A DNA stretch of 54,590 nt from Microcoleus sp. LEGE 07076 (GTDB lineage Bacteria; Cyanobacteriota; Cyanobacteriia; Cyanobacteriales; Microcoleaceae). The position numbers and the translations under genes were made by a program. The stretch covers positions 1-54,590 of the forward strand of contig NZ_JADEWV010000013.1 of NCBI RefSeq assembly GCF_015207455.1. The letters run 5' to 3'. Positions 14,550 to 27,249 of this stretch are shown piece by piece. The notes beneath the pieces were generated by a model. The model worked only from the letters and a program-made list of their open reading frames with translations. It was not told where the DNA came from and did not search any database. Position 1 is the first letter of the stretch; each line of letters begins with the position of its first letter.

Positions 14550-14569
14550 AGCCTGCTAGTTCCGCCGTA

Positions 14570-14656
14570 TAACAACTCACTTGCACCAGACCGAATCAAC
14601 TTTATCGGGTTAGGCACGAAAGGTTATTGGCAGCCGCTGAAAAGCAACGTTAGAAC
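14570..14656. other. possible degenerate attC-like site after the membrane-protein gene
   Basis: The stretch begins with CGTATAACAACTC, resembling the left (R''/L'') half of an integron attC site, and ends with CAACGTTAGAAC, resembling the right (R') half. The inner arms do not pair convincingly, so this may be a hybrid of two sites, or chance. It is listed because the same kind of site, in better shape, follows the DUF262 gene (17640) and the five-gene module (27163), and because here and after the DUF262 site GAGCGACGCACC follows shortly downstream. Confidence 0.3.
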
Positions 14657-15631: not shown

Positions 15632-15699
15632 CACTTAACATTAGAATAGTAGGAGTCGTATCTGTGGAGACATGGCATAGCAACGCAGCGAAAAGGAGC
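15632..15699 (+). other. gap with nothing recognised
   Basis: Between the broken toxin and the dispersed repeat starting near 15700 I see no gene, hairpin or promoter that I can support. Confidence 0.4.
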
Positions 15700-15905
15700 G
15701 TCAACCTCAAATCTCGAATCGATCGAGGTAATTTACGTAAGTTTACAAAATCGTGTCACTTTTTCTTGCCGACAGGGCGATCGGTAAGGTTTATTTTTTG
15801 AATTAAAGCAGACAACAAGCTGTTCAGAATGTTCGGAGTTAAACCGCAGATGTGCGGTATAATCCAACTAGGAATAGTATTGTACCGCATCTGCGACACA
15901 ATTAT
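15700..15905. repeat. dispersed island repeat, copy A, with hairpin at its right end
   Basis: The left part contains AATCGATCGAGGTAATTTACG, TGTCACTTTTTCTTGCCGAC and AGGGCGATCGG. The right part has a bulged inverted repeat, GCAGATG-TG-CGGTAT (from 15846) against ATTGTACCGCATCTGC (15879-15894). The sequence is shared with copy B (22321-22540) through to ACAATTAT, where the two copies diverge abruptly. Shorter copies lie at 17891-17960, 20490-20572 and near 21537-21575. Confidence 0.75.
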
Positions 15906-15945
15906 AAGTTAGGCCTCAAAATCCTAAATCATAGGATCGATAAAG

Positions 15946-17634
15946 ATGGAAGCCTCGACAACAATTAGAAAAATGATGGCTGGCAACAAAATTGTTGTGC
16001 CGACTTATCAGCGGGCTTACTCGTGGGATACTCCCTTTCCAAAATCAGATCGAAATACTCAAACAAATGTATTCCTGGAAGACTTAGAAGAATACAGTAA
16101 GAGCAATGCAAGCACCCCCTATTATTTTGGACACTTCCTTTTTGAGGAGAGAAATAAGGAATTCAATGTTATAGACGGACAGCAACGCCTCACAACTATT
16201 GTCATTTTCCTATCTTCTCTTTTTGCAAAAATGAAAGATATAAGAAATCTTACAGATTCAGAAGAAATTTGTTACGAAGACATGGTGAAGAGGCGTGACG
16301 TAATACGCTTTTCCACTGTTGATTACGACAACCAATTGTTTATTGACTATGTAATTGAACGAACTAAAGTTGATCATAATGGTCTCGACACAGAATCATC
16401 AAGGCGGATTGTTAGGGCATTTGATTTTTTTAATGAACGACTTGCAAGCAAAGATGAAGAATATCTGACTAAAATGCTCTCAATAATTAGTGAGGCAGCT
16501 TGTAGTACCCATCCGGTTCAAAGTGAATCGGAAGCAATCCAAATGTTCATATTTCAAAATAATAGAGGAAAGCGACCTTCAAATCTGGAAATCATAAAAG
16601 CTCAATTTATGTACAATGTCCATTTGCACGGCAATGAAGATAGAGATGCGCTTACAGTAGAGATTAAAAATCGCTTTGAAAGAATCTACAGGTCTATATC
16701 GTCTATCGAATATCGTATTAATGAAGATGATATTTTACTGTATACTTTGCGAGTTCATTTCAACTCACTTTGGGAAGTGAATTCGATAGAAAGAATCAAC
16801 AAGATTTTGACAAGTGGAGATCCTATCGATTTCATTAAGTCCTTCACAAGATCTCTCTCAACAAGTTTTGAACATCTCTCTCTTTTTTTTGGAAGACATG
16901 AACGAGAGAATTTCGCAATCCATTCCTTAATCACACTTGGCAGAATTGCGATTGCACTTCCGTTTATCATAAAGGCATATAAATATGCCCTAGCTACTGA
17001 TGAAATTAGTGTGCTGTGTTCTTCTTTGGAAGATTTGGTGATTCGTCATCGGCTGATCGGTACTCGTGCCGATATGACCTCAAGAATAAATGATGTTTTT
17101 GAAAAGTTTACTGAAGAGAATAAAAAAACTTCTCCGATAATTGAACGTATAGAGTGGATGAAAACGACATCAGAATGGTGGTGGGCTTATTGGAACAACG
17201 AACAGCTTAGAAATGCTCTCCAACGTGGAATAGATCATGCAGTCGCCAAATATCTGCTTTGGAAATATGAAGTACATTTAGAGCAGCAAGGCAAAAGCGG
17301 TTATTTGCCTACTCGGTTTGACAGAATCATCAGTCCAGAAGTTGAACACATCGCTCCGACAACTGAACCTGAAATCAAGCCTCATGGCTATGGCAATTAC
17401 GATGAAGAGTTCAGGAATCAATATTTGAATTGTCTGGGCAACTATCTGTTGTTATCGAAATCGCATAATTGTGCGGTTGGCAATATCTCACTTAAACAAA
17501 AATTGGCTACCTATATGCACAACGAACAACAGAGAGAAGTGAAGAGCTTAGTACCTGAGGATGGAATATGGAGCAAAGAAATAATACAAAAACGGAAAGA
17601 TAAGATTATCGCTGCACTCATAGCTATGTGTTGA
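15946..17634 (+). CDS. DUF262/DUF1524 (GmrSD-like) protein (562 aa)
   Basis: The N-terminal DUF262 domain (about residues 1-220) shows VPTYQRAYSWD, YYFGHFLFEE and the conserved VIDGQQRLTTIVIF, the ParB/Srx-like nucleotide-binding loop of this family. The C-terminal DUF1524 domain (about 430-560) has VEHIAPTTEP, LNCLGNYLLLSKSHNCAVGN and SLKQK, matching the His-Asn-His nuclease of GmrSD/BrxU proteins. In that family the DUF262 half hydrolyses NTP and the HNH half cuts modified phage DNA. Restriction activity here is inferred, not shown. The gene is AT-rich with no HIP1 octamers. It lies between a GTTAGGC box (15908) and an attC-like site (17640-17726), as a gene cassette would. Confidence 0.8.
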   Translation: MEASTTIRKMMAGNKIVVPTYQRAYSWDTPFPKSDRNTQTNVFLEDLEEYSKSNASTPYYFGHFLFEERNKEFNVIDGQQRLTTIVIFLSSLFAKMKDIRNLTDSEEICYEDMVKRRDVIRFSTVDYDNQLFIDYVIERTKVDHNGLDTESSRRIVRAFDFFNERLASKDEEYLTKMLSIISEAACSTHPVQSESEAIQMFIFQNNRGKRPSNLEIIKAQFMYNVHLHGNEDRDALTVEIKNRFERIYRSISSIEYRINEDDILLYTLRVHFNSLWEVNSIERINKILTSGDPIDFIKSFTRSLSTSFEHLSLFFGRHERENFAIHSLITLGRIAIALPFIIKAYKYALATDEISVLCSSLEDLVIRHRLIGTRADMTSRINDVFEKFTEENKKTSPIIERIEWMKTTSEWWWAYWNNEQLRNALQRGIDHAVAKYLLWKYEVHLEQQGKSGYLPTRFDRIISPEVEHIAPTTEPEIKPHGYGNYDEEFRNQYLNCLGNYLLLSKSHNCAVGNISLKQKLATYMHNEQQREVKSLVPEDGIWSKEIIQKRKDKIIAALIAMC

Positions 17635-17639
17635 ATAAG

Positions 17640-17726
17640 GCATAACAATTCAAATGCAGCGGACGGTCGAGAGCTGCTCGTGTGGAGTTTGAGGTTGTCT
17701 GCCGCCGCTGATTTGAGCCGTTAGAC
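17640..17726. other. attC-like recombination site after the DUF262 gene
   Basis: GCATAAC (17640-17646) and GTTAGAC (17720-17726) are the outer R''- and R'-type boxes of an integron attC site. Each is 4 bases from an inner arm. CAAAT-G-CAGCGG on the left pairs with CCGCTG-ATTTG on the right and leaves one unpaired G, the extrahelical base typical of attC. Total length is 87 bases, within the normal range. No integron integrase is visible in the window. The site is 5 bases beyond the DUF262 stop codon, the usual cassette spacing. Confidence 0.7.
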
Positions 17727-19726: not shown

Positions 19727-19792
19727 AAATGGACTTCAGCAATAATAATTTAAGTACAAACCTGTCAATAACCCATTCACCGCCGAAAAATC

Positions 19793-20026
19793 ATGACAGC
19801 CGCCGAAAAACTTTACCAACTAATCCAAGCCCTTCCAGAAAACCAAATCAACGAAGTCCTCAACTTCGCTGAATTTCTCTACCAAAAAAAACTCTCCCCC
19901 CGTCAAACTATCTCCCCCGGCACTCTCACCGGACTTCGGGGTATTGCCAAACGGTCTGGAGCAGCCCCAAACGATGAGGACTTACAGGCAGAATATACCG
20001 ACTATCTCACTCAAAAATACCAGTAA
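19793..20026 (+). CDS. DUF2281-type antitoxin, copy 1 (77 aa)
   Basis: TAAEKLYQLIQALPENQINEVLNFAEFL and a C-terminal toxin-neutralising tail (LRGIAKRSGAAPNDEDLQAE) are typical of DUF2281 antitoxins that pair with PIN toxins. The paired toxin at 20035 is frameshifted. A second copy of the pair, with an intact toxin, is at 21625-22277. The two antitoxins differ at about a dozen positions. Confidence 0.8.
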   Translation: MTAAEKLYQLIQALPENQINEVLNFAEFLYQKKLSPRQTISPGTLTGLRGIAKRSGAAPNDEDLQAEYTDYLTQKYQ

Positions 20027-20034
20027 CTCTTCCC

Positions 20035-20443
20035 GTGAAAATTCTCATCGATACCAACATCGTCCTGGACTTAATCCTGGAACGGGAACCCTTTGTCGAG
20101 AGTGCGATCGCCCTTTTCGAGCAAATTGAACGGGGCAACGCCAGAAGGCTATATCGCCGCAACTACCATCACCAATATTTTCTACATCATCCGCAAAACC
20201 GAAGGTCGTGAAGTCGCTCTTGCTGCCATTCATCGACTACTAACTGGACTCCGATTTTGTGCTGTCGATCGCCAAACCGTCGAAACTGCTCTCAGTCTTG
20301 GACTGAAAGACTTTGAAGATAGTATCCAACTCGCCTGCGCGACGATCGATCGACTTGATGCGATCGTCACGCGCGATCGGAAAGACTTCATTGGTAGCAA
20401 CCTCCCCATTTACTCCCCCACAGAACTCTTAAACCTGCTATAG
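20035..20443 (+). pseudogene. PIN-domain toxin, copy 1, frameshifted
   Basis: From GTG 20035 the protein starts KILIDTNIVLDLILEREPF as in the intact copy at 21870. After ERGN the frame is lost: the DNA here reads AACGCCAGAAGG where the intact copy reads AACTTAGAAGG, one base more. The remainder (GYIAATTITNIFYIIRK to the end) is preserved in the +1 frame up to 20443. The gene is 409 bases long against 408 in the intact copy. The catalytic Asp residues are all encoded but split between frames. Confidence 0.85.
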
Positions 20444-20489
20444 CAGAAAAATATCTAAAAAAATTCCTAACTCCGAGCATAAGGATCGT

Positions 20490-20572
20490 CAACCTCAAGT
20501 CTCAAATCGATCGAGGTAATTTACGTAAGTTTGCACGATCGTGTTACTTTTTCTTGCCGACAGGGCGATCGG
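20490..20572. repeat. dispersed island repeat, copy C
   Basis: CGTCAACCTCAAGTCTCAAATCG through GGCGATCGGAGTAAG matches the left part of copies A and B. It follows the frameshifted PIN gene in the same way that copy B follows the intact PIN gene, so it is part of the same segmental duplication. The rest of the gap to 20717 holds a 31-codon open frame from 20633 that I do not consider a supported gene. Confidence 0.7.
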
Positions 20573-20717
20573 AGTAAGATTTCAAAGTTGTATTAGAAGG
20601 CGATCGTAAAGTTGATGTTCAACTATTAAGTAATGAGTGAGATTGCATTTCGTAAAATTAATCTTGTGGCTATTCATGCTAGGATTCAGCCAATTGTTCC
20701 ACTCACTATAGACGATC

Positions 20718-21227
20718 GTGCTGACTGATCAACATATTGCTGAAGCTTTGAGTCGTGCATACGTCCGTGCGATCGCTGGACGTGCCGGACTCAACTTAGC
20801 TATTCGGGAATACGACTATGGCGTGGATGGCAGTTTTGATGAGGTTGTGGTACGCCAAAATCGTCGGGTTGAATCTGGCTTTTCTCTCAGTTTTCAACTC
20901 AAAGCCTCGACCCAATGGCAACTCGATGATATTCAGGTTGTCTATGACTTGGAGGTGAAGACCTACAATGATTTGATTCTCAGACGCAGCATGAGAAGCG
21001 CAACACCCTGTATCCTGATTTTGTTAGCCCTGCCCTCGGATTCTATGCAATGGCTCATTTGTGAAGAAACAGAACTCAGATTGCAAGGAACCTGCTACTG
21101 GGAGTACCTCAGTGGTAGCCTCAGCGAAAATCGCCAGTCTGTCAGGATTAGAATTTCACGATCGCAACGCCTGACCCCAGAATCTTTGCTAACCTTAATA
21201 GAGAACGTCAAAACAGGAGAATGGTGA
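20718..21227 (+). CDS. DUF4365 domain protein, PD-(D/E)XK-like (169 aa)
   Basis: REYDYGVDGSFDE followed by SGFSLSFQLKAS gives the Asp and the Q-x-K pair of a PD-(D/E)XK-type nuclease core, as in DUF4365 proteins. Beta strands (CILILLALPS, MQWLICEE) follow. The gene starts with GTG at 20718 and overlaps its small partner (TGATG at 21225-21229). DUF4365 genes are often found in mobile or defence contexts. A nuclease role is inferred from the motif. It lies between the two copies of the DUF2281/PIN duplication. Confidence 0.75.
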   Translation: MLTDQHIAEALSRAYVRAIAGRAGLNLAIREYDYGVDGSFDEVVVRQNRRVESGFSLSFQLKASTQWQLDDIQVVYDLEVKTYNDLILRRSMRSATPCILILLALPSDSMQWLICEETELRLQGTCYWEYLSGSLSENRQSVRIRISRSQRLTPESLLTLIENVKTGEW

Positions 21228-21526
21228 TGACCCCTGAAGTTTTATCAAGTTACCCCCAAATCCAGGAGCTTCATATTGCTGAAGTGGTTAGCTATCTCCA
21301 GGAGAATCACTGGATATCGGTCAGTCATCCCAGTACACGGTTGCTTGTGTTTGAAAAAGGAGTTGACGATCGGGGCAAACCAATTCAGATTGTTCTGCCA
21401 AGCAAGGATGATTATGAAGATACGCCCTACTTACTAGCTAAAGCAATAAATCTTCTATCTTTTCTGCAATCTGTATCATTTCAGGAGATCGTGAAAGCGA
21501 TCGGTGCGTTTGCAAATGTCAGTTAG
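21227..21526 (+). CDS. small partner of the DUF4365 gene (99 aa), unknown
   Basis: I do not recognise the family. The sequence (IQELHIAEVVSYLQENHWISV, PIQIVLPSKDDYEDTPYLLAKAINLLSFL) is mixed alpha/beta with no catalytic motif. AGGAG at 21215-21219 is 7 bases from the ATG at 21227, which I therefore prefer to the ATG at 21221. The start overlaps the DUF4365 stop, so the two are coupled. An inhibitor/antitoxin or subunit role for the DUF4365 protein is a fair guess. Confidence 0.65.
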   Translation: MTPEVLSSYPQIQELHIAEVVSYLQENHWISVSHPSTRLLVFEKGVDDRGKPIQIVLPSKDDYEDTPYLLAKAINLLSFLQSVSFQEIVKAIGAFANVS

Positions 21527-21536
21527 ATTGAGATCT

Positions 21537-21575
21537 TGTCATTTTTTCTTGCCGATAGGGCGATCGAAGTAAGAT
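21537..21575. repeat. dispersed island repeat, fragment E
   Basis: ATCTTGTCATTTTTTCTTGC and GATAGGGCGATCGAAGTAAG match the middle of copies A to D. The following bases (TGTCAAAGTTGTGTTAGGAG) match the sequence after copy C near 20578. Confidence 0.55.
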
Positions 21576-21624
21576 GTCAAAGTTGTGTTAGGAGACGATA
21601 AAGCCCACCCACCCTCTAAAAGCC

Positions 21625-21861
21625 ATGACAGCCGCCGAAAGACTCTATCAACTGATCCAAACTTTCCCAGAAAGCCAAATCAACGAAGTCCTCCACTTCG
21701 CTGAATTTCTCCAGCAAAAACAACTCGCCACTCCTCAACAGGCTATCCCTCCTGGCACCCTCACCGGACTTCGGGGCATCGCCAAACGGTCTGGAGCAGC
21801 CCCTAGCGAGGAGGAACTGCAAACAGAATATACCGACTATCTCACTCAAAAATACCAGTAA
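21625..21861 (+). CDS. DUF2281-type antitoxin, copy 2 (78 aa)
   Basis: This protein matches the antitoxin at 19793 (TAAERLYQLIQTFPESQINEVLHFAEFL, then an almost identical second half from PGTLTGLRGIAKRSGAAP). It is 9 bases upstream of the intact PIN toxin gene and should neutralise it. The duplication extends beyond the coding parts into the downstream repeat. Confidence 0.8.
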   Translation: MTAAERLYQLIQTFPESQINEVLHFAEFLQQKQLATPQQAIPPGTLTGLRGIAKRSGAAPSEEELQTEYTDYLTQKYQ

Positions 21862-21869
21862 GCCATCCC

Positions 21870-22277
21870 GTGAAAATTCTCATCGATACCAACATCGTCC
21901 TGGACCTAATCCTGGAACGGGAACCCTTTGTCGAGAGTGCGATCGCCCTTTTCGAGCAAATTGAACGGGGCAACTTAGAAGGCTATATCGCCGCAACTAC
22001 CATCACCAATATTTTCTACATCATTCGTAAAACCGAAGGTCGTGAAGTCGCCCTTGCTGCCATTCATCGACTACTAACTGGACTCCGATTTTGTGCCGTC
22101 GATCGCCAAACCGTCGAAACCGCTCTCAGCCTTGGCCTGAAAGACTTTGAAGATAGTATCCAACTCGCCTGCGCGACGATTGATCGACTTGATGCGATCG
22201 TCACGCGCGATCGGAAAGACTTCATTGGTAGCAACCTCCCCATTTACTCGCCCACAGAACTCTTAAACCAGCTATAG
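21870..22277 (+). CDS. PIN-domain ribonuclease toxin, copy 2, intact (135 aa)
   Basis: PIN toxins cut RNA using clustered acidic residues. Here the first is in LIDTNIVLDLI, another in KDFEDSIQ, and the last in VTRDRKDF, with a Thr/Asn helix (TTITNIFYIIRK) between. The start is GTG at 21870. It is the working version of the frameshifted copy at 20035. It is encoded directly after its DUF2281 antitoxin. The 3' side runs into dispersed repeat copy B. Confidence 0.85.
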   Translation: MKILIDTNIVLDLILEREPFVESAIALFEQIERGNLEGYIAATTITNIFYIIRKTEGREVALAAIHRLLTGLRFCAVDRQTVETALSLGLKDFEDSIQLACATIDRLDAIVTRDRKDFIGSNLPIYSPTELLNQL

Positions 22278-22320
22278 TAGAAAAATATCTAAAAAAATTC
22301 CTAACTCCGAGTATAAGGAT

Positions 22321-22540
22321 CGTCAACCTCAAATCTCAAATCGATCGAGGTAATTTACGTAAGTTTACAAAATTATGTAACTTTTTCTGACCGACAGGGC
22401 GATCGGGGTGGTTTATTTTTTATTTTTGAGTTAAAATCAAAGCAGACAACAAGCTGTTGAGAATGTTCGGAGTTTAAACCGCAGATATGCGGGATAAGCC
22501 AACTAGAAATGTAATTGTACCACATCTGCGGTACAATTAT
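22321..22540. repeat. dispersed island repeat, copy B, left border of the five-gene module
   Basis: The whole of copy A is matched, including AAAGCAGACAACAAGCTGTT and the hairpin formed by GCAGATATGCGGG and CCACATCTGC. It is identical to copy A up to ACAATTAT, which ends at 22540. After that copy A goes on to AAGTTAGGCC and the DUF262 gene, while this copy goes on to GCGCTATCTC and the five-gene module. The remaining bases to 22612 show no further structure. Confidence 0.75.
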
Positions 22541-22612
22541 GCGCTATCTCGCTGCTCACTGAGGTTTTCTAGATCCGAAATGTGTTTCATGTTTGATAAA
22601 CAGAAGAAAGCT

Positions 22613-23242
22613 ATGAAGTTTCCTGGTTCTAAAGGTGAACACCAAGCTCAAGAGGAATTTGGTACTACAAGTCGAGCAATCGCTTTTTACAACAAGCAGA
22701 TGTTGGATTATCTGAACCCTCTAATGCAACAATTTATTTCAACTCAGGAGATGGTATTCATAGCTACATCAGATGCTAGTGGTTCGTGTGATTGCTCATT
22801 CCGTGCTGGTCTTCCTGGTTTTGTTCGAGTTCTCAATGATAGAGTGATTGCTTATCCTGAATATCGTGGCAACGGTGTAATGGCAAGCATTGGTAACATG
22901 ATGGAAAACCCGTCCATCGGCATGATTTTTCTTGACTTTTTTCAGAGCACAGTGGGTCTGCATGTTAATGGAAAGGTGCGAATAGTTGAGAATCAAGAGT
23001 TGCCCAATCAATTAGATATGGCAAGGGCAATAATGGAAGACCTTCAGCCAACCAATGGAAGATATCCAGAGCGCTGGGTATTTGTTGAAGTAGAAGAAGC
23101 CTACATACATTGTTCAAAGCACATTCCTCTTTTACAAAAGCTTGACAAAGAAATTCATTGGGGTACAGATAGCACGAAGCATAAGAGTGCTGATTTCTTT
23201 AAGTCTAAGGATTGTCCACGAGTATGGAAGGAAGATGAATAA
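22613..23242 (+). CDS. pyridoxamine-5'-phosphate-oxidase-like FMN-binding protein (209 aa)
   Basis: The protein has the split-barrel flavin-binding fold: MVFIATSDASGSCDCSFRAG, GFVRVLNDRVIAYPEYRGNGV, NPSIGMIFLDFFQSTVGLHVNG and WVFVEVEEAYIHCSKHIP. I recognise this as a frequent stand-alone pyridoxamine-phosphate-oxidase-like family of unknown substrate. I choose ATG 22613 (MKFPGSKGEH), where family similarity starts; ATGs at 22580 and 22589 are alternatives. It is the first gene of the module and overlaps the next by 8 bases. The module is AT-rich and I see no HIP1 octamer in it. A redox or FMN-reductase function is inferred only from the fold. Confidence 0.75.
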   Translation: MKFPGSKGEHQAQEEFGTTSRAIAFYNKQMLDYLNPLMQQFISTQEMVFIATSDASGSCDCSFRAGLPGFVRVLNDRVIAYPEYRGNGVMASIGNMMENPSIGMIFLDFFQSTVGLHVNGKVRIVENQELPNQLDMARAIMEDLQPTNGRYPERWVFVEVEEAYIHCSKHIPLLQKLDKEIHWGTDSTKHKSADFFKSKDCPRVWKEDE

Positions 23243-23720
23243 ACTAACATTACTTCCAGCTTTATCTGAGCCTGTTCTAGAAAGAATCGATGGATCAGAA
23301 TATAACATCAAGTATTTATATTGTTTGAGAAGCCATATGAAATATATATGCACCACTTGCAGTAAGGAGAAGAGACACGACAAGGCATTACTGCCTGCGA
23401 ATCAACGATATATAAGTGGGCGAATTAGCTTTGTTATTAGCGAAAGTCAAAGGCTAAGTACGTCGCTCCTTATATTATCAGGAAAGTATGGTTTGATAGA
23501 TGTTGAACGTGAAATACCTTGGTACGATCAAAAGCTGGTTGCTGGAGATTTAGAGACTTTAGTGAATATTCTGGTCAAGCAGCTTCAAGATAAACAGGTT
23601 TCAGAAATTATATTTTATGGTAGATCGCGCGAGATACCTGACTGGAAACCATATTATGATGTTCTTGAACAATCTTGTCGTCAACTTAATGTGACAATAT
23701 CTTACGTGTACCTTAGCTAA
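23235..23720 (+). CDS. DUF6884-like protein (161 aa)
   Basis: The core LLILSGKYGLIDVEREIPWYD with a preceding CTTCSKEKR cysteine pair and a following EIIFYGRS strand fits the DUF6884 type. Such proteins are small, often phage- or island-borne, and share a Rossmann-like fold with the accessory domain of archaeosine-type enzymes, as I recall. The start at 23235 has AAGGAAG immediately upstream and overlaps the previous stop. Its place beside a transglycosylase-like gene suggests a role in handling a modified base. Moderately sure of the family, unsure of the function. Confidence 0.55.
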   Translation: MNKLTLLPALSEPVLERIDGSEYNIKYLYCLRSHMKYICTTCSKEKRHDKALLPANQRYISGRISFVISESQRLSTSLLILSGKYGLIDVEREIPWYDQKLVAGDLETLVNILVKQLQDKQVSEIIFYGRSREIPDWKPYYDVLEQSCRQLNVTISYVYLS

Positions 23721-23777
23721 AAACCAAAGCTATCTTCACACCAATCTATGAAGTTTCAACCCTAGTGAGCAAGAAAT

Positions 23778-25136
23778 ATGAAAGTAGCTTTAATTAATCC
23801 TCCAGCTTCTAGAATTATTTATGGAAATGAGTATAAGCTGAAAAGTATTATTCCTTGTTTGGGTCTTTTCTACTTGCAATCGTACTGTAAGGACATTGCA
23901 GACATAGAAATTTTTGAGGGAGAGTTTTACTCTGATCTAGAACATTTTATCAATGCGATAAAAGCTTTTAATCCAGATATTATTGGAATAACAAGCAATA
24001 CTTCTACATATCCACTATGTGTACAAATTGCGGAAAGCGTAGATGCAAAGGTTAAAGCGGTAGGTGGTCCCTATTCTAGCTTTAGAGTTTCTGAATCTCT
24101 AGAAACATTTGATGTTGTTTTCATTGGTGATTCAGAAGTTTCTTTCCGAATGCTTCTTGAACGTCAACCTCTGGAGACAATTCCATCAATCGCCTTTAAA
24201 GAACCAACCGGGGCAGTAGTTAGAACCGACAATGCTTGTCTTCCTCCTTTAGATTCAATCCCATTCCCCGATCACTCAAAGATCCAACTAGGCTTGTATC
24301 AAGCCTCTCCACATCGGAAATTGCAAGAACCTTTTGCAACAATGATTACAACTCGAGGATGTGGTTTTAAATGTTCATTTTGTCTATCGGCTAAAGGAGG
24401 AATGAATGATGGCAAATATAGGGAACGCTCAGTCGCTAATGTTGTCCAAGAGCTAGAACTCCTAACAACTGAATTTGGAGTGAAAAGTGTTCAGTTTTGG
24501 GATGACACTTTCACTATGAGACGAGATAGAACAAAAGAGCTTTGTTCGGAAATTAAAAAGCTAGGGATAGAATTCGTCTGTAACACGAGAACCGATAAAA
24601 TTGATTCTGAAATAGCTAATTGGTTAGCAGACGCTGGCTGTCGTGGTGTATTTTTTGGTGTTGAATCTGGAGATCAATACATACTCGATCTAGATATGCA
24701 TAAAGGTGCTAAAAATGAACAAGTCAAGAATGCTATTGAGTACTGTAAAGAAACAGGTATGTGGAGTACTGCTAGTTTTATTTTTGGATCAATAAACGAT
24801 ACTGAAGAGTCTATACAGGATACTGTAAATTTTGCAGTAGAACTAGACGCTGACTATGTTTTATTTAACATTTATACTGCTCACCCTGGAACATACGGTT
24901 ATATGGAAGCGCTCCGGCAATCAATTATTGATGAATATAAAGTAGATCTTGAGCGTTGGCTAGACGAGCCTGTTGGAATTCCAACTATCTGTAAAAATCT
25001 TTCTCGGCAGCAGCTTCACAAGCTGAAGGCAGAAGCATACGTTAAGTATTATACACATCGAGGAGCCGACAAGTATCGTGATATTATCAAAACCTATCAA
25101 GAAGAGATTCTTCGATTAAGTAATGCTCTAGCTTAG
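23778..25136 (+). CDS. B12-binding-domain radical SAM enzyme (452 aa)
   Basis: The N-terminal part (about 1-135: VALINPPASR, NPDIIGITSNTSTYP, VKAVGGPYSS, VVFIGDSEVSF) is a cobalamin-binding-type Rossmann domain. The radical SAM barrel starts at TTRGCGFKCSFC (about residue 196), with the CxxxCxxC cluster-binding cysteines. SVQFWDDTFTMRR, CNTRTDKID, GVFFGVESGDQ and TASFIFGS follow along the barrel. Enzymes of this architecture methylate or rearrange unreactive carbon centres. The conserved His of many B12-binding domains (DxHxxG) is not seen, so B12 may not be bound. It is the third gene of the module, 57 bases after the DUF6884-like gene. Confidence 0.85.
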   Translation: MKVALINPPASRIIYGNEYKLKSIIPCLGLFYLQSYCKDIADIEIFEGEFYSDLEHFINAIKAFNPDIIGITSNTSTYPLCVQIAESVDAKVKAVGGPYSSFRVSESLETFDVVFIGDSEVSFRMLLERQPLETIPSIAFKEPTGAVVRTDNACLPPLDSIPFPDHSKIQLGLYQASPHRKLQEPFATMITTRGCGFKCSFCLSAKGGMNDGKYRERSVANVVQELELLTTEFGVKSVQFWDDTFTMRRDRTKELCSEIKKLGIEFVCNTRTDKIDSEIANWLADAGCRGVFFGVESGDQYILDLDMHKGAKNEQVKNAIEYCKETGMWSTASFIFGSINDTEESIQDTVNFAVELDADYVLFNIYTAHPGTYGYMEALRQSIIDEYKVDLERWLDEPVGIPTICKNLSRQQLHKLKAEAYVKYYTHRGADKYRDIIKTYQEEILRLSNALA

Positions 25137-25184
25137 TATCAACCCGAAGACTATCCTATTTAGATTTTAATACAGAAAAGTATC

Positions 25185-25976
25185 ATGACTATAGAATTAG
25201 CGCTTGAGTCTCCTATCTCGATGATGAATGAATTATGCCCTTTGGGCGATATAGAGTTGTGCTTTGTTCATCTTTTTAAAGAAAACTCTGTGTATAGAGA
25301 CTACTATCTTGACGCAAAGAAGAAAGGACGTTTCTTAATTCTTGATAATGGAATCATGGAACTTGGCTATTCAATGTCGTCAGATGACTTAATCACAAGT
25401 ACATCCGAGTTACAGCCAGATTTAGTAACACCTCCAGAAATACTAGGTGATGGGGACTCTACTCTTAAGTTGACCTATGCTTTTGCTGAGGCATTTGAGC
25501 GTAGTAAGCTTTATCCTAGTACAAAAATTTTAGGTGTTGCTCATGGCTCCAGTCTTCAAAGTTGGTGTAAAACATTTCAAGAGCTTCTACAAATCCCTTA
25601 TATTTCAAGAATTGCTGTTCCATATCGAATTCCATTTGATGTAACTCAGAGTACGAGAAATTGCTCTGAATTAGAGGCTTTCGTGGTGAGAAGAGTCGAT
25701 ATCTGTAACTGGATTGATGAAAAATATCCAAATACGGAAATTCATTTATTTGGACTTGCCCACCCTAGCGAAGTTAATTACCAAGCAAAACATAATTTCA
25801 TTAAGAGTATTGATACTTCCTTGCCAATAATGGCAGCCACTAGAAACATAAGATACGATGTCCTTGACTTTGGTTTATATGAAAAAGATAGGTTAAACAT
25901 ACAACTACCTTACAGTAAAAAACTTATTGACTGTGCAGAACGAAATATAACTGTATTAAAGCAGGTTTTAAAATGA
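25185..25976 (+). CDS. small tRNA-guanine-transglycosylase-like TIM-barrel protein (263 aa)
   Basis: The motifs fall in the order seen in tRNA-guanine transglycosylases and the DpdA DNA enzymes. FLILDNGIMELG is at the position of the substrate-binding SDSGGFQ, and PDLVTPPEILGD follows. ILGVAHGSS stands for GIVQGG, ISRIAVPYR comes next, and IHLFGLAHPSEV stands for LMGVGTP. FIKSIDTSLP puts an Asp where the nucleophile lies. The Zn-binding Cys/His cluster is absent, as in the short phage-type relatives I remember. A base exchange on DNA, RNA or a nucleotide is plausible but unproven. The last 4 bases overlap the next gene. The family is inferred from motif order, not from a search. Confidence 0.55.
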   Translation: MTIELALESPISMMNELCPLGDIELCFVHLFKENSVYRDYYLDAKKKGRFLILDNGIMELGYSMSSDDLITSTSELQPDLVTPPEILGDGDSTLKLTYAFAEAFERSKLYPSTKILGVAHGSSLQSWCKTFQELLQIPYISRIAVPYRIPFDVTQSTRNCSELEAFVVRRVDICNWIDEKYPNTEIHLFGLAHPSEVNYQAKHNFIKSIDTSLPIMAATRNIRYDVLDFGLYEKDRLNIQLPYSKKLIDCAERNITVLKQVLK

Positions 25977-27151
25977 CTATAAAGTTCGCATTCGATTTTG
26001 ACGGAGTATGTACAGATCTATCATTTTTGGCTGAGAAAGAAGTTGATAGATCAGAGTTTTTATATTCACCTATTTCTTTTTTTATCTGTCCGATTCGCAC
26101 AGGAATTGTTCAGTTGATGTCAGTCTCTAGTTTTTTTAGCAATATTTTTATCCTAACTTCGAGACCTGAAGAGGCTAAACCTTTCATAAAAAAATGGTTG
26201 CTAGAAAACCAGCTATTAGATCTTGTGGAAGACATCATATGCTGTAATGGGAGACCAAAAATTAACGTAATGAAGGAGCATAAAATAGATGTGCTTGTTG
26301 ATGATGAAAAAAGAAATCTGCCAGATCATATTGTAGATTTTAAATTTATCCTTTGGCAGGATCAATACTGGATAGATCTGTTAAAGAATATACTGGAATA
26401 CTTCATTGCTTCTCGCGCAAGACTCAAAAACAACCCAAGAAGTTTCTTAAAAGAGTTTAAGCTTTCTACTGACATTGGAGCCTCACCAGTCTTCATCTTA
26501 ACTTTGAATGATCGTAGAAATATAAAGCTAAGATTATGCTCAAATAATCAGACTAGAGATAGAATCATCAGCTTTTTGAGAATTACAGAGGAGAATAGAT
26601 ATTCTCATGTTGCTGTTTTAATTGCCGTGAATGGTTTAGCTATTTTGAAAACTTACATTGAAGGAGTCAACGTTTCATCTTTGAGAGAACAGGATAGGAT
26701 GGACATGATATTCAAAGTTGGTGTTGCATTAGCTAAGTTACATTCAATCGAAGTTGATGAGTTTAACTCAGATTTCAGACTAGAGGTGTTGAATGATGGA
26801 GTAAGCTTACTCGTGTTTTCTGCCGATAACTACAATATAATTGTTACTGAGACAGGAGAAATTGCGTTTATTGATCTGGAAGCTTGTAATGTCGGTTCTA
26901 GATGGGTTGACTACTTCTGGGCAAGAGAGCAACTATGTCAAAGTGATCGGGAAAAGTTAATACTAAAGGAAGGATATTTTTCTGTTTATATGGGAAATCT
27001 TCTTTGCCCTGATGAGGAAAAAATGGCAAGACTTAGCTATAAAGTTTGGCTTACATATCAGTTTCAGCAAAGCAAGCTTGCTCATGCATCTAACTTGCAA
27101 AAAGTTTCGTTAATCAATAAAGCATTTCAAGATCTGTGGTCTTTAGAGTAA
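25973..27151 (+). CDS. HAD-like phosphatase fused to an APH-like kinase domain (392 aa)
   Basis: Residues 1-150 show HAD motifs: FDFDGVCTD (the nucleophile and acid Asp), IFILTSRPEEA, and VLVDDEKRNLPDH. They resemble 5'-nucleotidase-type phosphatases. Residues about 165-385 look like an aminoglycoside-phosphotransferase-type kinase: VGVALAKLHSIE, then SADNYNIIVTETGEIAFIDLEA and WVDYFWAREQL. The usual catalytic HGDxxxxN loop reads SADNYN, so His and Gly are replaced while Asp and Asn remain. Fusion of a phosphatase and a kinase in one chain suggests work on a phosphorylated small molecule. It is the last gene of the module and is coupled to the TGT-like gene by ATGA. Confidence 0.65.
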   Translation: MTIKFAFDFDGVCTDLSFLAEKEVDRSEFLYSPISFFICPIRTGIVQLMSVSSFFSNIFILTSRPEEAKPFIKKWLLENQLLDLVEDIICCNGRPKINVMKEHKIDVLVDDEKRNLPDHIVDFKFILWQDQYWIDLLKNILEYFIASRARLKNNPRSFLKEFKLSTDIGASPVFILTLNDRRNIKLRLCSNNQTRDRIISFLRITEENRYSHVAVLIAVNGLAILKTYIEGVNVSSLREQDRMDMIFKVGVALAKLHSIEVDEFNSDFRLEVLNDGVSLLVFSADNYNIIVTETGEIAFIDLEACNVGSRWVDYFWAREQLCQSDREKLILKEGYFSVYMGNLLCPDEEKMARLSYKVWLTYQFQQSKLAHASNLQKVSLINKAFQDLWSLE

Positions 27152-27162
27152 GTCCAAAGCGA

Positions 27163-27249
27163 GATAACAACCCTGCTGGAGCGGACTGGCAAAAGATCTT
27201 GGTTGTGCTGCAAAGGTTACTTGCAGTCGCTCAGCAGGAACTTTATACC
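27163..27249. other. attC-like site ending the five-gene module
   Basis: CCTGCT-G-GAGCG-G-ACTG-G-CAA (27172-27192) pairs with TTGCAGTCGCTCAGCAGG (27221-27238): 18 base pairs interrupted by three single unpaired Gs, all on one arm. That is the pattern of extrahelical bases in integron attC sites. Outer boxes are GATAAC (27163-27168) and TTTATAC (27242-27248), where a perfect site would have GTTATC or GTTATAC, so the cleavage G is missing. The site starts 11 bases past the stop of the last module gene. Confidence 0.6.

Follow-up and report, generated by a model that had tools for sequence, protein, structure and literature searches.

We analyzed a stretch of 54,590 nt from Microcoleus sp. LEGE 07076 (GCF_015207455.1, contig NZ_JADEWV010000013.1, forward strand; the whole stretch is called the window below), in which the segment 22541-27246 (+) is a foreign, exchanged, cassette-like insert made up of a PNPOx-type gene, a four-gene module and an attC-like hairpin. 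We consider it fairly probable that the four genes form a phage-type 7-deazaguanine DNA-modification module with a hypermodification step, carried here as an integron-type cassette. Its probable effect is to replace guanine in DNA by an unusual base, one that may not have been described before. The novelty lies in the neighbours of its DpdA-like gene, which stands with genes for a B12-binding radical SAM protein and a fused HAD-APH protein in place of preQ0 genes, the four forming one unit that occurs both in a phage and in a cassette on a chromosome.

A four-gene module with one order in two genomes

A sequence-only reading of this DNA had described five co-directional genes within 22541-27151. 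The list of open reading frames (ORFs) bears this out (22580-27151, all on the + strand), as profile matches do for the families that had been named (PNPOx, DUF6884-like, B12-binding radical SAM, DpdA-like and APH). The first gene (22580-23242) encodes a PNPOx-type flavin mononucleotide (FMN) protein of 220 aa, or of 251 aa if read from 22487 (PF01243, E 1e-12). It is followed by genes for a DUF6884/DpdC-like protein of 127 aa (23337-23720), a B12-binding radical SAM protein of 452 aa (23778-25136; PF04055, E 1.5e-26; PF02310, E 6e-11), a predicted short DpdA-like DNA-guanine transglycosylase of 263 aa (25185-25976) and a protein of 392 aa in which a HAD-like domain is fused to an APH-like domain (25973-27151; PF01636, E 4.1e-5). 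Of the two gene overlaps proposed earlier, that between the transglycosylase and HAD-APH genes (4 nt) is present in the window, with a gap at the same junction in the second copy described below. The PNPOx/DUF6884 overlap needs a start at 23235, which would give a DUF6884-like protein of 161 aa, and is probably spurious because homology to the only close relative begins at the ATG at 23337.

That relative was found by scanning genome contigs with the window transglycosylase, which returned a single locus on a Symploca sp. contig (L002). The gene order there (DUF6884-like, radical SAM, transglycosylase, HAD-APH) is identical to that of the window and hence not unique to this genome. DNA homology runs from 23336 to 25123 and from 25165 to 27144; it starts at the DUF6884 start codon and stops with the end of the HAD-APH gene, so that it is confined to the four genes, and the conserved unit is window 23337-27151. 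The proteins are 62% (DUF6884-like), 79% (radical SAM), 67% (transglycosylase) and 56% (HAD-APH) identical. In all four genes the proportion of nonsynonymous differences (pN, 0.12-0.26) is low compared with that of synonymous ones (pS, 0.69-0.75), and the ratio of the corresponding rates (dN/dS) is 0.10 for the DUF6884-like gene, 0.07 for radical SAM and 0.17 for HAD-APH, being undefined for the transglycosylase, where dS is saturated. The four genes are under purifying selection, and the low pN relative to pS together with identities of 56-79% mark them as old, kept and long diverged.

The FMN protein, which had been counted as part of the set, does not belong to it: the PNPOx gene is absent from the Symploca module and lies beyond the DNA homology. 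In Symploca, PNPOx matches are confined to other contigs and are distant (37% and 24% identity). Among 29 genomes of the genus Microcoleus, eight have a PNPOx match, this one included, at 29-36% identity in the others. The transglycosylase and HAD-APH genes were found in 1 of the 386 cyanobacterial genomes drawn, which is this one. No account of the four-gene set was found in the literature searched, in which coverage of phage 7-deazaguanine papers is incomplete.

The Symploca copy sits in phage-like, prophage-type surroundings. Genes for the small terminase subunit (E 7.1e-5), the large terminase subunit (E 1.1e-21) and a portal protein (E 4.6e-42) lie 3' of the module, a gene matching methylase and ParB-like models lies 5' of it, and a scan with the L002 terminase gave four viral loci. 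One of these, a phage contig (L206), matches L002 at 95.6-96.8% identity in five aligned pieces that lie to either side of the module. It lacks the four genes, and its flanks are near-contiguous (8502, 8510) where L002 carries 4.4 kb. Since these flanks are nearly contiguous without the module, the module is either an insert in the phage or a deletion from it, and its lower GC content (0.331 vs 0.437 in the rest of L002) favours an insert. Left of this insert, at L002:5676-5760, there is a perfect-looking hairpin with a repeated TTAGAGGT, which is absent from L206. A resident prophage was also considered as the setting of the window copy and is unsupported, as the window ORFs scanned place a restriction-type gene, PIN/DUF2281 pairs, a DUF4365 gene and a very long repetitive ORF in the flanks.

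The DpdA-like transglycosylase and its partners

Judged by its sequence and the gene neighbourhood of its relatives, the 263-aa protein is a member of a widespread phage-type DpdA family, in agreement with the earlier assignment to tRNA-guanine transglycosylase (TGT)/DpdA-like enzymes. It has no Pfam match, and it is matched by the NCBIfam DpdA model (E 8.6e-6, although at 24.8 bits against an equivalog cut-off of 200) and by the PADLOC DpdA model (E 3.8e-7). Relatives occur in 30 phage records at E <= 1e-3 and in 4 plasmid records, and the best phage matches (E 5e-18) are annotated as DNA guanine transglycosylase. preQ0-pathway genes lie within ~6-7 kb in three of the four phage neighbourhoods examined from these 30 records, and queD, queE and folE are found in both plasmid neighbourhoods examined from the 4. 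On two Streptomyces plasmids (L005 and L006) the DpdA-like gene adjoins queD, queE and folE, and L005 further carries a phage portal gene nearby and a neighbouring gene that matches the phosphorylase superfamily.

An alignment scan of viral contigs (A6) gave at least 566 relatives, the best 80 of which were analyzed. A QueC/QueD/QueE/QueF/FolE match (E <= 1e-5) was present in 74 of these 80 viral loci (73 when FolE is left out), which are mutually related and partly overlapping, so that the association is strong without representing 74 independent events. The control, 80 of 120 viral loci matching an arbitrary 14-base pattern, gave such a match in 1 of 80. Only this broader scan found the relatives: on viral contigs, neither the single-protein scan with the window transglycosylase nor the HAD-APH and DUF6884 alignment scans returned one.

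Asp54, Arg170 and Asp210 are invariant in all 35 aligned sequences. An hhalign alignment with E. coli Tgt, of low probability (11%) and not reaching Asp54, places Asp210 against the Asp of ‘FDC’ in that enzyme. Both cyanobacterial copies deviate at His7, Ser56, Asp85, Gln120 and Tyr200, positions kept by 31-33 of the 35 sequences; His replaces Gln at position 120 in both of them and in two other sequences. GVAHG, the motif containing His120, recurs in the part of the solved DpdA 7ui4 that aligns, in a match falling short of significance (E 0.16). Hutinet et al. describe a histidine that is conserved in DpdA and missing from DpdA2 (PMC6884629), to which His120 may correspond. An altered base pocket in the cyanobacterial copies would fit an altered base.

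The short phage DpdA proteins (relatives in Flavobacterium phage immuto, Cellulophaga phiST, Weizmannia phage Youna2 and Campylobacter CP220) are of similar length, align with the window protein over their full length at 22.6-28% identity, and share the invariant Asp54, Asp210 and Arg170. They differ in their company: most viral relatives stand beside queC/D/E/F or folE, whereas the window gene stands beside radical SAM and HAD-APH genes with no que gene. Rosebush-type mycobacteriophages (e.g., Godines) carry a transglycosylase, queC, queD, queE and GTP cyclohydrolase near a weakly DUF6884-like gene; however, that likeness is not significant (E 0.08), and the radical SAM/HAD-APH module was not seen in the 10 kb examined. 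The gp35 protein of Streptomyces phage SF3, tried as a second DpdA, breaks conserved alignment columns and was dropped from later alignments, SF3 being kept for radical SAM comparison only.

As a TGT relative, the 263-aa protein could instead act on tRNA or other RNA and so alter host or phage translation, and some phages with preQ0 genes and without DpdA have been proposed to affect tRNA (PMC6884629). We hold this to be quite improbable: its nearest relatives are phage proteins, one group of which is annotated as DNA guanine transglycosylase, and its HVAHG-type site (GVAHG) recurs, as noted, in the aligned part of 7ui4.

The DUF6884-like protein matched PF21818 (E 2.1e-5) at 25.1 bits, under the 30-bit cut-off, and is hence DUF6884-like and not a formal member; it also matched PADLOC DpdC (E 1.3e-5). 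DUF6884 is the domain of dpdC, a gene reported as required for dADG in S. Montevideo (PMC11888242); its Pfam authors ascribe to it a YaaA-like fold that binds DNA, with CxxxK and LSAxxG as motifs (PMC11701544). Both copies keep CxxxK, and LSAxxG reads LSGxxG in them. The Dpd genomic islands (dpdA-C with dpdD-K) resemble the window module in having DpdA-like and DpdC-like (DUF6884) proteins; the window module differs in its added radical SAM and HAD-APH proteins, its short DpdA and the lack of a dpdB-like gene among the five proteins. DpdB models gave no match at E <= 1 among these five, the rest of the genome not having been searched for dpdB. A DUF6884 protein was also seen on an Aulosira plasmid (L048:6938-14133), followed by sigma-like, IrrE-like, HerA-like and metallophosphoesterase genes.

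These counterparts raise the question of a plain dPreQ0/dADG-type system, in which DpdA and the DpdC-like DUF6884 protein would make a known 7-deazaguanine while the radical SAM and HAD-APH proteins act elsewhere (regulation, cofactor) and ride along. DpdA and DUF6884 are indeed the two genes with known-family counterparts, and proteins of the DUF6884/DpdC and DpdA kinds are enough by themselves to give a known base (PMC11888242). Yet all four genes, and nothing else, are kept together in two distant hosts, and the radical SAM protein is the most conserved of them (79%), which makes such a system unlikely, if less so than RNA modification.

In the radical SAM protein the B12-binding and radical SAM domains both score above the Pfam cut-off, and the cysteines of CxxxCxxC (C195, C199 and C202) are kept in all three aligned sequences. 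It is nearest to HpnJ, PhpK and BchE-type models; because none of these is near its cut-off, its reaction cannot be read from its family. In Streptomyces phage SF3 (L013:8073-10371), a B12-radical SAM gene has a thymidylate kinase gene on one side and the gene of an unnamed 279-aa protein on the other; this may be a further locus for base hypermodification.

The phosphatase-kinase fusion of the sequence-only reading held as a fusion, with an APH-like domain by Pfam and a HAD domain by motifs, and became uncertain as a kinase. The APH-like half scores 23.9 bits against PF01636 (cut-off 23.2). The catalytic loop of APH proteins usually reads HxDxxxxN; in both copies it reads VFSADNYN, which departs from that pattern. 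The other half we take to be a HAD domain from the motifs DFDG and DD, recognised by eye and with no Pfam match behind them; its Asp pairs are kept in the alignment. The role of the HAD-APH protein may be binding and not phosphorylation. Small molecules are the usual targets of APH-like and HAD domains, and, going by the names of the matched models, the B12-radical SAM group of the window protein serves many natural-product pathways. The set could on these grounds make an antibiotic-like deazapurine nucleoside, with the DpdA-like protein recruited for base exchange; this is the least probable of the alternatives and very unlikely, given that the second copy is phage-located and that the module holds no export or resistance gene.

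For the phage-type DNA-modification module that we favour, we infer DNA as the substrate, and with it the order of steps, the base and the benefit. The short DpdA-like transglycosylase would replace guanine in DNA by host-made preQ0 or a related 7-deazaguanine base. The DpdC-related DUF6884 protein would alter the 7-substituent or aid DNA recognition, and the B12-dependent radical SAM enzyme and the HAD-APH protein would build or activate an extra group, leading to a hypermodified base. QueD, which the host search covered, is present in this genome (two adjacent PF01242 matches), and the Symploca genome has QueD with an adjoining QueC-like gene. The earlier proposal that the set makes and inserts, or removes, an unusual base therefore retains its core, with a DpdA-like enzyme and the gene order in a second genome behind it, and loses the FMN protein.

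In a phage, the module would be a moron against restriction. An anti-phage modification system, as had also been proposed, is not favoured, since the second home of the module is phage-like and phage DpdA modification is reported to protect phage DNA (PMC6884629). In the present host, the role could be either anti-phage or phage-type protection.

A foreign segment with an attC-like end

As had been noticed from its letters, the segment is AT-rich and devoid of HIP1 octamers: GC in 22541-27246 is 0.372 vs 0.441 for the whole window, none of the 22 HIP1 octamers of the window falls in it, and neither does any of its 152 CGATCG sites, where ~13 would be expected at the window rate. The repeat copy proposed as its left bound does end at 22540. 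The flanks (up to 22540, and from 27247 or 27258 on) are common to two same-genus genomes that carry other genes between them. In these, the slot holds a P-loop protein gene (L232:3724-5142; PADLOC LeoA, E 3.1e-5, weak) and a PDC-S26-like protein gene (L233:3409-4533; E 6.1e-9), both defence-like.

The right bound, described earlier as an attC-like hairpin (27161-27248, +), lies 9 nt past the HAD-APH stop and is supported by relatives, covariance model matches and the distance to the ORF. A DNA search with the right flank across the 29 genus genomes gave ~80-bp hairpin matches at 78-83% identity in seven genomes. In eight copies (seven distinct), 94.0% of cells are paired and the stem is kept with compensating changes. 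Covariation is 0.201 vs 0.107 in shuffled alignments, with 0 of 500 shuffles reaching it, while the three doubly changed pairs are reached by 124 of 500. Folded alone, the 27161 hairpin is modest (z -1.86; 8 of 200 shuffles as good), so that its case rests on relatives and position. The hairpin model built from these relatives (R1) found a second site in the window at 17639-17726 (+), 4 nt past the stop of a GmrSD-type gene (cmsearch E 2.9e-11), and a weak third at 14566-14655 (+), 16 nt past a 330-aa ORF (E 0.06 and 0.034).

Of 18 model matches, five (L236-L240) resemble a different, terminator-type repeat and were dropped. The remaining 13 start -7 to 65 nt past a same-strand ORF stop (ORFs of at least 60 aa, sought within 250 nt upstream); these are raw distances with no random-position null, and some of the sites are the same cassette in different genomes, five sharing one homologous 68-73-aa ORF. 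A pooled count of 21 distinct hairpin rows includes the dropped type and a model-fitted alignment, and is not relied on. The model search of the own genome is a lower bound, as 150 of 710 candidates were scored and the 17639 site was missed; a plain DNA search of that genome gave no significant copy (best other E 0.37), and Rfam gave no match at the gathering score.

attC sites have the core sites RYYYAAC ... GTTRRRY and the form of an outer box, an unpaired spacer, a stem with an extra-helical base, and a variable loop. The hairpins have this form, that at 17639 ending in GTTAGAC and that at 14566 in GTTAGAA. In common with integron cassettes and CALIN elements, they lie directly past same-strand ORFs and are conserved in the genus, with no intact integrase found. 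They differ in that the window cassette would hold five genes, its left border is not attC-like and its right core is altered. Conserved attC sites in chromosomal integrons, CALIN elements, phage-resistance functions in cassettes, and cyanobacterial attC sites have been described (PMC8618304, PMC9668308, PMC8352920). Elsewhere in the genus (L225:3178-4180), two attC-like hairpins on one strand enclose a 225-aa ORF, as a cassette-like unit. In this cyanobacterium, the module would have arrived with the unrelated PNPOx gene as an integron-type cassette, in a slot for defence-like cargo.

Several observations weigh against a phage-type modification module carried as an integron-type cassette. On the enzymatic side, just two loci with the module are known, the Symploca contig has few wider relatives (four loci), and none of the 80 viral loci analyzed among the at least 566 carries a window-type DUF6884, radical SAM or HAD-APH gene. 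Searches with phage queries found no preQ0 (que) gene in the window or in the Symploca contig pieces (L002 and L045-L047), and within 6 kb of the relative in Campylobacter phage CP220 no que gene is annotated. The sequence similarity that ties the 263-aa protein to solved TGT/DpdA proteins is weak (E 0.16 for 7ui4; hhalign probability 11% for E. coli Tgt). On the cassette side, the 27161 hairpin starts with AGATAAC and has CTT in its right core in place of the GTT of attC. There is no attC-like site at the left border of the segment, nor beside the L002 module in the model search, and the other cargo of the slot (L232, L233) has no attC-like hairpin behind it at E <= 0.1. The integron integrase model TIGR02249 was over its cut-off in 0 of the 29 genus genomes, with no match at E <= 1e-10 in the own genome. 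Matches below the cut-off were found in 10 of the 29, several being fragments with stops, and also in 13 of 14 control genomes.

A bolder proposal is that the module makes a hypermodified 7-deazaguanine undescribed in DNA, through a methylcobalamin-type radical SAM step and the HAD-APH protein, and moves between phages and chromosomal integron-type cassettes. The bacterium would thus own the anti-restriction chemistry of a phage and, next to it, a type IV restriction cassette potentially able to recognise bases of this kind. Because only two module loci are known, we put this forward tentatively, as somewhat under an even chance. If the module works as we propose, B12-radical SAM chemistry would act on a DNA base precursor, and the known 7-deazaguanine modifications of DNA would gain a further route and possibly a further base. 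There would also be a concrete case of a single modification module that serves as integron-type cassette cargo beside a GmrSD-type gene in one genome and is inserted into a phage in another.

Neighbouring cargo and repeats

The GmrSD-type restriction gene (15946-17634, +; PF03235, E 1.1e-26; PF07510, E 5.4e-12; PADLOC HEC-06, E 3.9e-36) is the cargo of a paralogous slot in the window, which has the same leading and trailing repeats. Directly before the two cargo slots stands a repeat block (15693-15911 and 22315-22540) with an inverted repeat around a TATAAT-like hexamer. This block may serve exchangeable cargo as a common promoter/operator, the promoter having been recognised by eye. Between the slots, at 19772-22276, a DUF2281/PIN gene pair is duplicated in tandem, with copies 82-97% identical.

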